From positions 868,001 through 932,000 of the forward strand of contig BQUP01000001.1 in NCBI GenBank assembly GCA_022835595.1: 64,000 nt of DNA. The letters are read 5' to 3'. This document shows positions 39,166-47,300 of this stretch, in pieces (position 1 is the stretch's first letter; the number at the start of each line of letters is the position of its first letter). This stretch comes from Cystobasidium ongulense. Taxonomy: Eukaryota > Basidiomycota > Cystobasidiomycetes > Cystobasidiales > Cystobasidiaceae. The notes under the pieces were generated by a model, which saw nothing but the letters and a program-made list of their open reading frames with translations, was not told the origin of the DNA and ran no database searches. The translations under genes were made by a program, and so were the position numbers.

Positions 39166-41122
39166 TTACTTCAAAGCGATTTTTCCACTTCTCATATTGT
39201 CACCTTGTATACTCCAGCTGATTTTCCTGCTCAATCCGAATACCAAAAAGGCAGACAAAGCGAAAGCAGCTACAGCAGCAGGTTTTTGAATCAGATCCAA
39301 TGTCGTGAATCTATAACTCAACAGGACATCTTGAGCGTGGTTTTCACCACATACTGATCGATGTAATGTCACCGTAGGTCGCCCTGATGTGTCCAGATAT
39401 CCGTAGGTTTTATTTGTAGTCGAAGTCTCTACTTCGAATGGATACGATACTGTGACATCACTGAGAACACCAAAAAGCAAAAACAGTTAGTTGCTTACTG
39501 GAGTAGTTGGCTATGAACAGCACACAACACTCACTGAGCTCCTTCTGGAAGAACGAATCTAACAGTGACATCATCAAACGCAGCATTTTTCAAATCCGTC
39601 AAGAAAGGAATAGCCAGTTTATATTCCCCTTTCTTAGAGTCGTATTTCAGGACATCGGTAAGGGGTTGCTTGTAACCAACAGAGAAAGAATAGTTCCATC
39701 CACCAAGTAAAGGATATCTTGGGGTCAATTGTAAATGTGATTTCGCTAGATTTTGAGGCTTCTTCAATGAAACTGTGGAGGATAAACGAGGAGCTGGACG
39801 GAATCTGGATGTTGATACGTTGCCTATTTCATCTATGAAGTAGGGCGAATAGACATTTCCAGGTAATGAGTAGACTATGTTGTTTGCGGTGTGTGGCGTC
39901 ACAAAAGCTGCTCCTCGACGCTGGTAAGAGAGCGCTTGGTGTGACAGACGGGAGAAATAGCCTTTTAGTCTGTTGATGGAAGAGTAGGCAGAGATGAAAC
40001 ATAGTGTGACCATTTAGCTTAGGTTCTTCAGATCAAAGTATAGGGAATTCGGTGCCTAACTCACTTTGGACCGTCATTGACTAGTAGTATCTCATCTTCG
40101 ATGGCGACATGATTGCCCCAGTGCGATATCTGAACTGTTCTATCCAGTTTGCGAACGGCAAGGACAGGTTCAGGCTGTTCATAGTGAATGGAAGCGATCT
40201 GTGGAAATACGGGTTAAGCAGCAGGTTCTTCCTTTATCATCATTGTAATCAGACAGCGGACACACCTGAGAACCAGAAGTTGCTCCTAAGCCTTCTGTAT
40301 TTGTGAATTGGATAATAGCCGACCCTGGGGTATGTGTCGCTGACCATCCATGCGGTACCAGATCCTCCGCAGCTCTAGGGGTGGGGCATCTACATGAGGA
40401 AGGGGCGAGATCAGCAATAAGGCTTAGCGAAGAGAGATCTGGACTCACTTGACTCTGACTGTTACGCTACCACTGGCTAGCTCATCACTTGGGTTTACAA
40501 TCTGACCGCCTACTAGATCGCGCTCCCAGTGCATGCCTTGATTTGCAGCTTCCTGAGGCAAAGTGGCTGGTTTGGGGGTTGTAAGGTGGTTGTAAGTTGT
40601 ATGTACTGATAGATGAGTCTCTTCTTCTGGTTTGAGGGATGTAGATGGTATCGTAGCTGCGTAGTATTGAGCACCACTGCGCGTTGCGTTTAAAGGGAAA
40701 TGTGCATCAGTGCATCCACCCAGAAGTAGGCATGTACACGATAGCACTCACTCGTCTGCACGCTGGTTCAGCACTTCTACCTTGACTGGCTTCTTCGTAT
40801 TGCCCGTCCTGCCGGTGTATGCCTCTATCCAGCTCAGGTTGGCAGCGTCTCTTCCATCGACAGCGAAGACGAACACCTCGCCGTCGTTGCTACTTGATGA
40901 GGATGGCTTCAATGAATAGACCGTCGTCGCCTTGCTCGTTGCTCCACCGAGCTCTACGGTGCGGGCTATCGATGTGAGGCTCAATGAGGAGCGCGGTATG
41001 GACGAGGATGATGATGAGGCCGAGAAGGTGTTCTGCTGCGCCGAGCAGGCCAGCACAAGGCAGGCCAGCAGCGAGAACAGCAGCAGCATCGCTGGACGCT
41101 GTCTCTTGCTCGATACGACCAT
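39166..41122 (-). CDS. OST1: oligosaccharyltransferase subunit Ost1 (ribophorin I)
   Basis: ATG at 41122; stop at 39168-39166; about six exons. The N-terminus has a basic start and a hydrophobic core ending LACSAQ, a signal peptide. The lumenal domain follows: SLTSIARTVELGGATSK, QYYAATIPSTSLKPEEETHL, HTTYNHLTTPKPATLPQE and VVNPSDE-like turns. Next is the diagnostic block DRTVQISHWGNHVAIEDE, then YFIDEIGNVSTS, RYPLLGGWNYSFSVGY, DVTVRFVLPEGAQ, YLDTSGRPTVTLHR and QDVLLSYRF. A single C-terminal membrane helix follows (AAVAAFALSAFLVFGL) with a short basic cytosolic tail. All match ribophorin I. Function: an ER subunit of the N-glycosylation complex. Length and domain order are normal. The upstream region is shared with the divergent Pst2-like gene. 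Confidence 0.95.
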
Positions 41123-41797
41123 GCTTGCGTGTGTTGGATGCTGAACGCGGTGGTCAGAGGCAGGCCAGCAGCATCATAACGCCAGAGCATCAAGCAGGAC
41201 GGCAGCAACAACGAATCAAAGCAAGAGAGGCATTGCAGCACATGAGCGCTCAATATCAGCAGCACTATGATGCATATCCACGCTGTCCGCACCCTGACTG
41301 CCATAGTTGCACACTGAACAGTATTCGCCACCGAGCAGGACAATCTACATTGTACCAGCTACCGAAGCATGGGCTGAGTGTAGCAGCGACACGCAGGCCA
41401 GTGTGAGCGTCATCTATATCGGTGTGTCCTAGCTAACCGTAGACCGCCTGCCTCGTCTTGTCGTATCTGACTTGACGGCACGTTCTCCCACTATACAGGT
41501 ACAAACTACCACTGAGCGAGTCAGCATACAAAGGTGCAGCACGACAGTCTGGACAGTCAGCATACTACTCATCAACAGCACTACCACGCCCTGTTACGTG
41601 CATATTCCATATTCCACCACCCCCGAATGCTTGCTTGCTGATGCTTATGCGTGTTTCCAAATTCAGAAATCACCTTCCCACGCTCAAGATTAAGAAGGTA
41701 CTCGTCGATAACAACTCGCTCACTCCAGCTTGCTTTTCTCTTTCTTTCCCATCATAACATAATCATAACAGCACCTCCAAGCTCACATTGAACCACC
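41123..41797. other. divergent promoter region (OST1 / Pst2-like)
   Basis: About 675 bp between two divergent starts. The plus-strand end is C/T/A-rich before the Pst2-like ATG (cacctccaagctcacattgaaccacc). No gene seen. Confidence 0.5.
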
Positions 41798-43810
41798 ATG
41801 GCCGCCCAACCCAGAATCGCCGTCATCTACTAGTAGGCTGTCCCCACCTCACCTCGCTGTAAAGCTGCTCGTACTTTCCCTGACACCTTTCTCTCGCTCA
41901 GCTCGACGTAGGCTTGCTTGCATGCATCAAAACACTGTTGGTCCTACTAACCTCTTGCCCGTCTTCTCCCAGCTACGGTCACATCACAAAGTACATGGCT
42001 TGACTATCGCTGCAATCCATGTTGTTGCCCATACTGACCTGGCACGCCATTTCTCCGATCACCGTTATCAACAAACAGGCTCACAGAGTCCGTCCTAGAG
42101 GGTGCAAAGAGCACGTAGGTTGCCATCCGTCCCCTCCCGGTGACATGCCGTATGGTGAAACTGACATTCTACGCTCGTAACCCGCAGTGGCGCTCATGTC
42201 GACCTCTTCCAGATTCCAGAGACCCTATCTGAAGAGGTTCTAGCCAAGCAGCATGCTATCCCTCGTCCTGGTGCGTTCAAATTGTACTTGCATACTTCTT
42301 GTGCTTGCCTGACGCGGAAGCCTCTCCCTATCATCAGATGTACCCGTCATCACCGGCGACAAGCTAGAGGAGTACGATGGAGTGAGTTGGCAGCAATGTC
42401 AAAACAAGAGCATCTATTTCATATTTCGATACTGATGTATCTCCTGCACCTCTCCTGTAGTTCATCTTCGGATTCCCTACTAGATACGGCCGTGCTCCAG
42501 CTCAAGTCTCCGCTTTCTTCGATTCCACCGGAAAGCAATGGGCCTCCGGCAAGCTCGTCGGAAAATGCGCTACAGTCTATACTTCCGTTGCTTCGTGAGC
42601 TTCCTTCCTCTAATGCTATGTTCAGTCGTACCCTCCATAAACTGATACGATCGTTGCCTTTCTTCTCCACCTGCAGCCAGCACGGTGGTCTCGAAACTAC
42701 TGCTTTGACTACCATGCCCTTCTTCATGCACCATGGAATCGCATACGTTCCCCCTGGATACTCTCACCCCGAGTGAGTCATCACTTGCGTACTCATCTGT
42801 TGCAGGTTGCGATACTGACCATTGTTATCGTTTCTGAAAACAGGCTCTCTAAACTCGATGAGATCATCGGAGGGTAAGCATAGGGTGGAAGCACCTATCT
42901 AGATTATATACCTATGCTTATAACACTTTCCCTTACTCGCCAGATCCGCCTACGGTGCTGGTACAGTAGCAGGAGGTGATGGCTCCAGACAGCCAGTCCA
43001 ATCCGACCTCAATGTCGCAAAGCACCAAGGTTCTTACTTCGCTGGATTCGTTGGCAACCTTGTTGCTGGAAAGGCGAAGTAAGCTTTTCTTAACTTTGAA
43101 CCTTGCCTACGGTTAGATATCAGTTCCTAGACGGTAGCGTGCATGCACAGCAGGGGAAAGTCCAGGCAGCAGAAGATTCATGTAGGCTAGAAATACTCCT
43201 GAAGAATCCTTGAATAATTTCAGAAAGTCATCCTGAGTCTTCTATGATGCCTGCCAGTTTCCCTGCCAAGTTGTTAGTCACACATGCATGCGCCGTCTAG
43301 GCTGATTATGTTACCATTCGCCTGTTTTCTAACATAGCAAAGGCTGACTTAACGTGTGACTCGCTTTCGGGAATCGGTACATCTCAGACTAGCTGGTCAC
43401 TCTTCAATGGCGACCACCACCGCTGCTGAAGCCCTTCCTGCCTCTGCTGTAGCTGGTGGAGCAGCACACGGCGCTACTGGTAGTGCCGGTATGTGCCAAT
43501 AATTCACACGACATGCAGTAACATACAGATGCTGACATAGACAACTTCAACAACAGATGCACAAGGCTACACAGTCGACCAGGACAAGCTTCCTGCTTCT
43601 GCAGCTCAGGCCTCACAAGCTGCCCCCGCTGCTAACATGCACACGACCAACACTCCCGCTGCTGTCCCAGCGGCTAATACCACTGCCACAGCTGGCACAG
43701 CTACTGCTACTGGAGAAAAGGCCGCCGCTGCTGCACCACAGGGCAAGGAGGCTAAGAAGGCCTCTATCTGGGCAAGATGCTGCGGCAGCTCCAAAGATTA
43801 CGCTCAGTAG
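41798..43810 (+). CDS. WrbA/Pst2-type flavodoxin-like NAD(P)H:quinone reductase with extended C-terminus
   Basis: Twelve exons: 41798-41832, 41902-41907, 41973-41990, 42079-42114, 42188-42270, 42338-42381, 42461-42594, 42677-42772, 42844-42873, 42944-43078, 43388-43488, 43557-43810. They sum to 972 nt, 323 residues. The protein opens IAVIYYSTYGHITK, the FMN phosphate loop. FIFGFPTRYG and GGLETTALTTMPFFMHHG are WrbA hallmarks. FMN quinone reductases of this family (Pst2, Rfs1, Ycp4) protect from oxidative stress and sit on the plasma membrane or eisosomes. Oddities: 6 nt and 18 nt microexons, and a 309 nt intron after Gly-Lys-Ala. If that intron is kept, the protein ends AAG-TAA at 206 residues, the usual Pst2 length. 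If spliced, it gains a ~117-residue Ala-rich tail ending IWARCCGSSKDYAQ, where the Cys pair could be palmitoylated as in Ycp4. Confidence 0.9.
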
Positions 43811-44351
43811 TCCTTCCAGAGGAGATGCCTTGGAAACTTCATGTTTAGCTTTCAGATACCACTCGCGTTTAAATCAGATTGTTCAGCTTGTTGATAGATT
43901 GTCACTTGGACCGACTCATCAAACCCACTCGTAATCACTCGTAGATCCTTGGTACAATCGCACAATCTAGATAGAGATTCCTGCATTGCGAATTTGTATT
44001 GCATTGGCATGAATGAGCATGAATTGTTCGGCGAATTGCACTACTGACTGATCTGAGCGATGCTGTGCATGATGAACCGGGATTTTCTATAGCTACATAA
44101 TTGATTTGCATTTTGCGAAGTTGTACTTATTTGCATTGTTCTTGTTGGGAGGACCGAGCACTGGCCCGTGACGGACCTAAGAGGACGATACAGCAGACGA
44201 CGATTGCGTTATAAACAGTTGCATGGTCGATAGTGACCTTTACGGTTTGCAGATTGATTGGTTTAGGTTTCCGTAGGGTGGTGCAGCTTGTACCTCTGGT
44301 GAAATTTGTAAAGAGAAGGGCATCCGGGATCTTGAGCATTATAGCTTTGCC
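43811..44351. other. convergent 3' region
   Basis: About 540 bp between the Pst2-like and PUF gene ends; A/T-rich and TTTGCATT-type words near 44.0-44.1 kb. No gene seen. Confidence 0.45.
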
Positions 44352-47300
44352 TTAGTGGCCCCGCCAGGCTCGAGCTCGTTCGACAACGAACCAGATTCTG
44401 CAAATGAATGAATTAGATACGTGTGAATAGACACGGCATATCGTACTTTCTACTCACCGACTACCGTGCTTCGACCCTTTAAGAGTGACTCCGTGTCGTC
44501 TGATAGCTTCAATGAGCATTTCCTTAAGATCGCTCGGAGCGTTTGTGAGGAGAAGCGTGACTATCTGACTTCCATTGGCAGTTTGACAAATAGAAACAAC
44601 GGCTGGTCGACCTCTGTTTGCGTGATGTATACTCAGCGGAGTCTCAAAGCGAAGGACCATGGTAGACATACTGTGTAGCATCACACACCAGGTGAACGTA
44701 GCTCTTGACGGTATCTGAAGACATTCCAGCTGCTTTAATCATCTTCTCGCTGCCAAGGGAAATTGTTTCAGCTCATCACAGGTATGTGGGGGTAAAAGAC
44801 CAGTTTACATTGCTTTTGCACCGAATTGGTCTTGTGAGACTGAAACAGAGGACTCCAACAGGATTTCGAAAACAGCATCCCGGTCTTCCTCCTATGGTGC
44901 TCCGCTAGTCAGACCTGAATTTTCTTTCCAAGGCAGCTGCACTCACCCTTCCATGCTCAATAAGACTGGAGTAGAGCGCTTCAGTATCATGCCCTCAGGC
45001 TGGTGCAAGGGAGCAAACTCACTGGAGAACAACAAAAGTGGCCCATTGGGAACCGCAGAGCGTTACAGTATCCTTGATGAGAGCCTTGACGATGCTTTCT
45101 TTTTCTTCGACCGGCCAATTTTCGAGAACAGCCTGGCAGAGAAGACTTCCAGTCTCATCCATGGCGATACTTGACCAGTCTTTGAGCTGCTTCAAGGCAG
45201 GATAAAGGTTCGCAGGTGGTCTGGCACTCGCTAGAATTTTTGACCATACGTGACCAGCAGATTTGCTGAAGAAAGTCAGACGCGTCAGACTCGACAGCTA
45301 TGGAGAGATATTACGATTCGTTCGCCTACTTTGTGAAGCTCTTCGGATCGCGAGAAAGTCTGGAGAACAACCGGATTAGAAGGATGACAGGGACTGTCCG
45401 ATATTAAGGGGAGTCCTCACTCATTGACCACTAGCTGATCGAAGCCTGGAACCTCATCGAGTGCTCTTTGAACCACGTGCGAGCCATAAGTATCTGCTGC
45501 GAGGATGCTTATATGACCAGACATTGCCTGAGCGATAGCGTTCTTTTGCTGAGGAGTTCCCAGATCGAGGCACCTCGACACGACTGGAAGAACGAGCATC
45601 AGTATGAGACCCACAATCTGAAACACAACACCTACTGAAATTGCCAAATCTATTATAAGGTCAATCAAGTCCCGTCAGACATGCCTTTGCAAGAGCGGCA
45701 TAGGCATAGTCACTGACCGATTACTGATGAGCTGAAAGGCGAATGGTAGCACGTTATCTACGATCTGTTTTCTTTTGTAAGGATCATCGCAGCTTTTGAG
45801 CTTTTGCTGCAGAAAGATGCTGGCTTGTTGATCGTTTCGATCTAAAATCTGCTTCAACAGAGCCTAAACCCACATTGTTCAGTATATGAAAGGACCGTGT
45901 GGAGGTATATCTCCTCACTTGATAGTTCACTGGTGATTCATTGGAGGAATGCTGACCAGGCTGAGCGGGCCCTCGAGAGTTCTAGAATGCAGACTCCCCA
46001 ATCAGCTCTCAGCAAACGGCGAAGATGCGAGCTATACTCATTACATTCTCCGGCAGTAAAACACCAGAAGCAGCTGCTAAGGCATGGAAGGGACCGTTAT
46101 AACCTCCAGAAGCGGAAGCGATCGCGGTAGAAGCATGCTGTAGTCTATTCTGACCCTGGGCTACAGTGAAAGAGTTGGTAGGATTAGTCTGGCCACCGTT
46201 GTGATTAAATTGTGCTGTAGGTGCTCCCGACGCTAGGAATGTTGACGGTGTGGCTGCCATAGAATAGCGCGATTCCTGCTCGGAGACGGTGACTCTGCGC
46301 CTAGGTGGCAGCTGTGGCATCACGAGTCCGGAAGGTCGACTTCCATACTGGTCGACGGGGCTGGAAGAATACAGCGGCCGTACAGGTGACTCCGTAGACT
46401 GGACCGGACTGTAACGTCCATCTGATGGTGAAGGAGGTCCATGTCTCAGCTGCGCAAACGCGTCAGAAATGTGACTTCGTGCATGGCTGCTATTAAGACT
46501 GTTAAGCTCCATGGCTGAGATTTGAGCTTGAAGGTTCTTGATTTCGCGGTATTGTCTGTTCAGTTCATTGCGCTGTTTATCGATGTCCCGCTTCTGGACG
46601 ATCTGTTCGCTGCTCATCAGGCTGATCTTATCAACCAGTCCGTTCAGCACTCGGAGTGCATTTGATGTAGGGCTGGGAAGGGATCGGTCAAGAACCCCAT
46701 TAGGCAACGCAATAATAATGTACTAACCTAGGCGGGGCGGTGCTGGACAAGCGTGGCTCGCCATAAGGAGGGGCCGACTTAAACAGACCAGAAGTTCACT
46801 GCTATCCTTCATAGCTGCCGAGAGGCTAGACTTACCGAATGGGAGTGGCGCAGAACCCTCTCAGGAATCTGATGTTGGCCATAGTAAGGCTCGTCGCCTG
46901 GAACAGTCGGCATACGACGAGCGCTGGTGTTGAAAAGGGAGGCAGTATCTTGATTGCCAGCTCTAGCATCGTGACGCACCTCGTAAAGAGAGTGTGGCAA
47001 GGCATTCGCTTCAGATTGCCAAAATGCTCCTATACGAGGAGTCAGGTTGCCCTGAAGATCAGGGGTAGGACTATAACGAGCGACATTAACGTATTCTCCG
47101 GCTTGAGGATATTCAGAATCAGGCGGGGAATGAGCAACACTGCTCCTGCCAGAAGCTTTGTCGAACGATTGATGTACGGCATCGTCCTGTAGTCGCAAAG
47201 AGGGACGATTTCTGCTTCTCACATGTGTGATTGGAGCATAGGGGTCTGAAGGTTCACCTGTTCGATTGGAATGGTGAGTAGAAGCGGAGGCTGACAGACC

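Follow-up and report, generated by a model that had tools for sequence, protein, structure and literature searches.

A stop-carrying splice donor and a predicted intron hairpin between the enzyme domain and the tail of a quinone reductase gene in Cystobasidium ongulense

A long intron of a quinone reductase gene in Cystobasidium ongulense begins with an in-frame stop codon, directly after the enzyme domain and before a C-terminal tail. Does this arrangement mark a switch between a short and a tailed enzyme, or does it follow from where the intron happens to fall? The gene lies in a stretch of 64,000 nucleotides (contig BQUP01000001.1, positions 868,001 to 932,000 of the forward strand; hereafter the window), which has a GC content of 49.6% and is dense in small introns. 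A first-pass annotation had proposed that regulated splicing or intronic polyadenylation gives both a soluble and a membrane form from this one gene. The parts of the gene that bear on the question are:

41798 to 43810, + strand: coding region, 12 exons, 323 amino acids with all 11 introns removed (gene model with profile and PDB matches)
42944 to 43078, + strand: final exon of the enzyme domain, ending ...GNLVAGKA(K), phase 2 (gene model)
43079 to 43387, + strand: phase-2 intron of 309 nt, donor GTAAGC with in-frame TAA at bases 2-4, acceptor TCTCAG (gene model and gene finder)
43388 to 43488, + strand: tail exon 1, coding log-odds +7.3 nats in frame against -13.6 and -7.5 out of frame
43557 to 43810, + strand: tail exon 2 including the stop codon, encoding ...KEAKKASIWARCCGSSKDYAQ, coding log-odds +14.7 nats in frame against -20.7 and -9.5 out of frame

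Splicing of the 309-nt intron at the modelled junctions (GAA/GTAAGC ... TCTCAG/A) adds a tail of 117 residues and gives a 323-residue protein ending ARCCGSSKDYAQ; if the intron is kept, the frame reads Lys-TAA and ends after 206 residues. The intron is several times longer than the other ten of the gene, which measure 65-88 nt. In its boundaries, the AA/GTAAGC context, both product lengths and this contrast in intron length, our model reproduces what the first-pass annotation had described.

Judged by its sequence, the gene product is a WrbA/Pst2/Ycp4-type NAD(P)H:quinone reductase, which bears out its earlier description as Pst2-like: the 323-residue protein scores 220.1 bits against NF002999 (cut-off 141) and 209.6 bits against TIGR01755 (cut-off 132.5), and the best of 14 matching PDB sequences is 5mp4, "Protoplast secreted protein 2" (E 7.1e-51, residues 5-194). 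The 206-residue form contains the whole enzyme domain ahead of the 309-nt intron, as both NCBIfam quinone-reductase profiles reach their end at residues 196-198. Saccharomyces cerevisiae Pst2 (5mp4, 198 residues) and bacterial WrbA, whose entries also align over the domain, have the same enzyme domain but no tail, whereas the present protein is tailed. A pattern search of a non-fungal genome contig collection matched 29 stretches and gave two relatives from bacteria, aligned to query residues 6-173 and 69-115, neither of which reaches the tail; there were no relatives among the six pattern-matching stretches from viral contigs of the non-fungal collection. As both collections exclude fungi, this absence carries no weight for conservation.

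The C-terminal extension past the flavodoxin domain has the Ala/Thr-rich character originally noted (Ala 32%, Thr 12%; A, T, G, S and P together 66%) and no match to a Pfam family. Its two exons look clearly coding, with a signal above chance: The log-odds given above were obtained with an exon coding model trained without this gene's codons, and as a control for the 254-nt exon, the best of 2000 random overlapping placements outside the window's predicted genes reached 5.5, a comparison that fits the longer tail exon only. The 309-nt intron, in turn, comes out as non-coding in each of the three phases (-15.6, -24.8 and -40.7); with -3.1 under the intron model, it is not a typical intron sequence either. 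Since the tail exons look coding, the tailed 323-residue enzyme is probably the main product.

A small, self-trained gene finder was run on 264 kb of sequence, comprising the window and 20 stretches of 10 kb from contig C1. It predicted 92 genes, and the 72 that scored above 15 contain 345 introns; these calls are unverified, an open-frame finder may favour stop-containing introns, and the sample comes from one contig. At the present gene it misplaced the 5' end by merging unrelated sequence onto it, and it reproduced the 43078/43388 junction, both tail exons and the stop codon at 43810. The donor and acceptor of the 309-nt intron are of average strength, lying at the 51.5th and 63.3rd percentile, respectively, of the predicted introns.

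The in-frame stop itself turns out to be ordinary. In a phase-2 intron, bases 2-4 of the donor take the place of a codon when the intron is read through, and the beginnings GTAA, GTGA and GTAG thus read as TAA, TGA and TAG. Seven of the 11 introns of this gene have a stop at the donor (in one of the seven, a TAG is completed by the first G of the donor), as do 89 of the 345 predicted introns, this gene included, all of them belonging to the 125 phase-2 introns. Excluding this gene, donor-borne stops are found in 83 of 332 introns, distributed over 39 of 71 genes, and in 15 of the 66 introns located 55-75% of the way along the coding sequence. The donor stop of the 309-nt intron is therefore ordinary for this genome and no more than chance would give. 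It had been taken as a sign of an isoform switch, a role it loses because it follows from arithmetic and is common. A general caution follows: about a quarter of introns in intron-rich fungi bear a donor stop, and a whole domain followed by such a stop is weak evidence of a switch.

The length of the intron is unusual though not unique: the predicted introns have a median of 67 nt, and 10 of the 345 reach at least 300 nt, some of them possibly gene-finder errors. Two further features of the intron may bear on its splicing:

43329 to 43348, + strand: branch-point-like CTAAC (43329) and CTGAC (43344), the nearest 41 nt from the acceptor
43111 to 43315, + strand: long imperfect hairpin with arms at about 43111-43188 and 43226-43315 (folding and inverted-repeat tests)

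The distance of 41 nt is unusually large, close to the upper end of the range seen in predicted introns (median 22, 95th percentile 43.7). The intron folds with -93.8 kcal/mol (z -3.17), a stability matched by none of 100 shuffles, and among the 14 predicted introns of at least 200 nt it has the lowest folding z (-2.6; the next is -1.18). In larger comparisons its folding energy was equalled by 2 of 400 shuffles, 21 of 500 GC-matched genome segments, 16 of 219 segments below 50% GC and 102 of 400 random segments unmatched for GC. The inverted-repeat score of 66.5, from a test picked after the fold had been seen, was matched once in 400 shuffles and three times in 500 GC-matched segments. The hairpin is thus backed by its shape more than by its energy, as equally stable segments occur in the genome with GC matching as well as without. 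When 50-nt flanks are included, core pairs have probabilities of about 0.9-1.0 at both 25 and 37 °C and the outermost pair tested 0.18-0.32, with about 55 base pairs expected in the hairpin in all. Such a structure may loop out about 175-205 nt, leaving an effective length nearer to that of ordinary introns. Other aspects of the predicted fold might make splicing slower. When the intron is folded alone, the donor pairs with the branch-point region in the best single structure; once flanks are added and the ensemble is considered, this contact becomes rare, with 0.1-0.2 pairs expected, and the donor hexamer has a probability of 0.83 of pairing at other positions.

We favour, with a probability of roughly 0.65, the reading that this is an ordinary intron-rich gene in which the fully spliced 323-residue form is the main product. 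The 309-nt intron would be removed constitutively, with the hairpin taking its 175-205 nt out of the way and so bringing distant splice signals nearer to each other; the tail would probably anchor the enzyme at a membrane by means of the Cys pair close to the C-terminus; and any 206-residue form, from retention or premature polyadenylation, would be minor at most, in line with many other introns of such fungi. Of this reading, the gene structure, the family, the coding tail and the hairpin are computational results, and constitutive splicing, the membrane tether and the role of the hairpin are inferences. This reading is favoured because the tail codes in the frame that splicing sets, the gene finder picks the same junctions, donor and acceptor are average and donor stops are common; it also gains from the hairpin, from the existence of a tailed Ycp4 and from the small proteome gain ascribed to intron retention in Cryptococcus neoformans. 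It is weakened by the far branch points and the donor pairing of 0.83, both of which could favour retention, by the lack of a CAAX box in the tail, and by hairpin energies as low as this one being common in segments unmatched for GC.

What the tail does can be approached through its known relatives. The protein ends CCGSSKDYAQ, which places cysteines 9 and 10 positions from the C-terminus and lacks a CAAX box; the position of this Cys pair beside basic and aromatic residues suggests S-acylation of the tail. Ycp4 of Candida albicans and S. cerevisiae belongs to the same enzyme domain family; according to an excerpt of PMC4556627, the C. albicans protein is likewise tailed, with a C-terminal extension of about 90 residues that ends in a CAAX box. 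The present tail differs in having the Cys pair, in lacking the CAAX box and in being split by introns, and the two tails are likened by description. In the source excerpts S. cerevisiae Ycp4 is cited as palmitoylated, so that the earlier characterization of Ycp4 as tailed and palmitoylated stands, the first half for C. albicans and the second for S. cerevisiae. The distinction that had been built on it, with a short soluble form and a long membrane form, finds no support in the excerpted literature: C. albicans Pst1, Pst2 and Pst3, about 8 kD smaller than Ycp4, give plasma-membrane GFP signal as Ycp4 does (the authors consider that free GFP may account for some additional cytoplasmic signal), and in S. 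cerevisiae the eisosome proteins listed include Pst2 and Rfs1 as well as Ycp4. A short form would hence not be expected to be simply soluble, given that tailless yeast relatives are likewise reported from the plasma membrane or eisosomes. Our literature search found nothing joining a Cryptococcus flavodoxin-type quinone oxidoreductase to palmitoylation, and a paper on palmitoylation by C. neoformans Pfa4 (PMC4430228) mentions none of quinone, flavo, Ycp4 and Alt a 7 in its main text.

The strongest competing explanation, which we nevertheless consider unlikely, is the one first put forward: that regulated retention of the 309-nt intron, or polyadenylation within it, yields 206- and 323-residue enzymes in place of the separate paralogues of yeasts. 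The enzyme domain is indeed complete at the retained stop, and the intron is long and structured with a donor predicted to be mostly paired. This is also the only gene of its family that we found in the 19.8-Mb genome, where all seven matches of a protein search and all three of a TIGR01755 search are the gene itself. A PF03358 search missed the gene in the window and found an ArsH-like locus; exon-by-exon searches can therefore miss genes, such as a chopped-up paralogue, and a single WrbA/Pst2/Ycp4 gene in this genome is likely on these matches. This locus, an FMN_red match on contig C3 (L001, 1501-1710), was considered as a second family member and read as ArsH-like: a piece of 70 residues scores 135.5 bits against TIGR02690 (ArsH), whose cut-off for the whole protein, 292.25, it does not reach. 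There is precedent for one gene giving two proteins: in the excerpted text of PMC3597508, one alternatively spliced SKI7/HBS1 gene in fungi does the work of two duplicated yeast genes. That case, in most of the fungi described there, uses alternative 3' splice sites, and the excerpt claims no stop-carrying donor or retention switch. Against such a switch in the present gene stand the arithmetic of donor stops and the plasma-membrane position of the short relatives in two yeasts, which means that losing the tail need not solubilise the enzyme.

Polyadenylation within the intron would be a further route to the short form, and one motif there recalls C. neoformans:

43284 to 43289, + strand: ATGCAT, one variant of AUGHAH, the poly(A) motif of Cryptococcus, within the hairpin stem (motif match; chance possible)

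Poly(A) sites of C. neoformans carry AUGHAH, with AUGCAU the commonest form, and 194 of its genes have poly(A) clusters in introns between the start and stop codons, as an excerpt of PMC3990503 reports. The 309-nt intron contains two AUGHAH matches (ATGCAC at 43143 and the ATGCAT at 43284), a number not far above the expectation of 0.77 for that length; for ATGCAT alone, one is found where 0.13 are expected, and this copy is fully paired in the stem of the predicted fold. Per 309 nt, AUGHAH occurs 0.94 times after predicted stops versus 0.65-0.77 times elsewhere (0.72 in coding sequence). As the motif is only slightly commoner past predicted stops, it can count only as a putative poly(A) signal in this organism. 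C. neoformans resembles the present fungus in being rich in small introns and in that a kept intron truncates the reading frame (excerpts of PMC3990503 and PMC5006051); its authors, in the excerpted text of PMC5006051, see intron retention as expression control with little gain for the proteome, and it is a different species that serves as an analogue only. A thymidylate-synthase peptide of the present genome matches PDB 2aaz, the C. neoformans enzyme, at 215.7 bits, ahead of 175.6 bits for the next entry.

We think it quite improbable that the hairpin acts as a gate, with donor pairing setting the ratio of tailless to lipid-tailed enzyme from one gene, where yeasts use separate Pst2/Rfs1 and Ycp4. 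If two forms were made, splicing would allow this one fungal gene to put an antioxidant enzyme into two states, a case like that of SKI7/HBS1.

The tail could also be a later acquisition by exonisation, an explanation to which we give similarly little credence. The gene would once have ended ...AAG TAA GC, its stop doubling as a good donor and the intron being the old 3' UTR. The sequence AAG-TAA-GC does read both as a last codon with its stop and as an AA/GTAAGC donor, the family profiles end just before it, and the intron has the length of a short 3' UTR; yet any phase-2 GTRA donor looks alike, and the tail of C. albicans Ycp4, as described in the excerpt cited above, means that the present one may be old. 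Very improbable, finally, is a separate small gene that starts at an in-frame ATG in 43388-43488 and is unjoined to the enzyme: the ATG lies near the exon start (the M of LAGHSSM), the tail matches no Pfam family and phase agreement by chance has a probability of 1/3, but the good acceptor at 43387 (63rd percentile), the matching frame, the coding signal, the joining of the exons by the gene finder and the existence of tailed relatives all speak for a tail.

Other candidates for the content of the 309-nt intron were considered as well. A small RNA was rejected, since Rfam gave no match in 41500-44500 even at E values up to 5 and none at gathering score in the window, as was a transposon or repeat, the intron DNA being found at a single place, itself. 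Fifteen frame-keeping candidates for a hidden cassette exon, of 3 to 45 nt, had no support, and the intron scores as non-coding. The intron could be a decayed single-copy foldback element.

The constitutively spliced gene that we favour has a second uncommon feature, near its 5' end:

41902 to 41907, + strand: micro-exon CTCGAC, 6 nt, supplying the S-T of the FMN-loop motif YYSTYGHI (frame and PDB alignments)

The micro-exon lies in a 140-nt gap between 41832 and 41973, with an intron of 69 nt before it and one of 65 nt after it. Joining 41832 straight to 41973 gives VIYYYGH, in which the FMN loop is partly lost, while inclusion of the micro-exon gives VIYYSTYGHI; the intact FMN-phosphate loop motif (Y-S/T-x-Y-G-H) is present only when it is spliced in, and in all four PDB alignments listed this motif aligns without a gap. 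Of the two micro-exon candidates listed, CTCGAC alone leaves the frame open and the other introduces 12 stops. A model lacking the micro-exon still has profile scores of 199.8-210.8 bits. An exon of 6 nt is unusual yet precedented: exons down to 1 bp are reported for C. neoformans in the excerpt of PMC3990503. The micro-exon and the intron hairpin are the new points here, and automatic annotation could miss both. The gene has neighbours on the opposite strand on either side, a piece of a gene for ribophorin I, an oligosaccharyltransferase subunit, upstream (39531-40013, - strand; PF04597, E 8.1e-42) and, downstream, part of a gene for an RNA-binding protein with Pumilio repeats (45417-45668, - strand; PF00806, E 7.4e-8).
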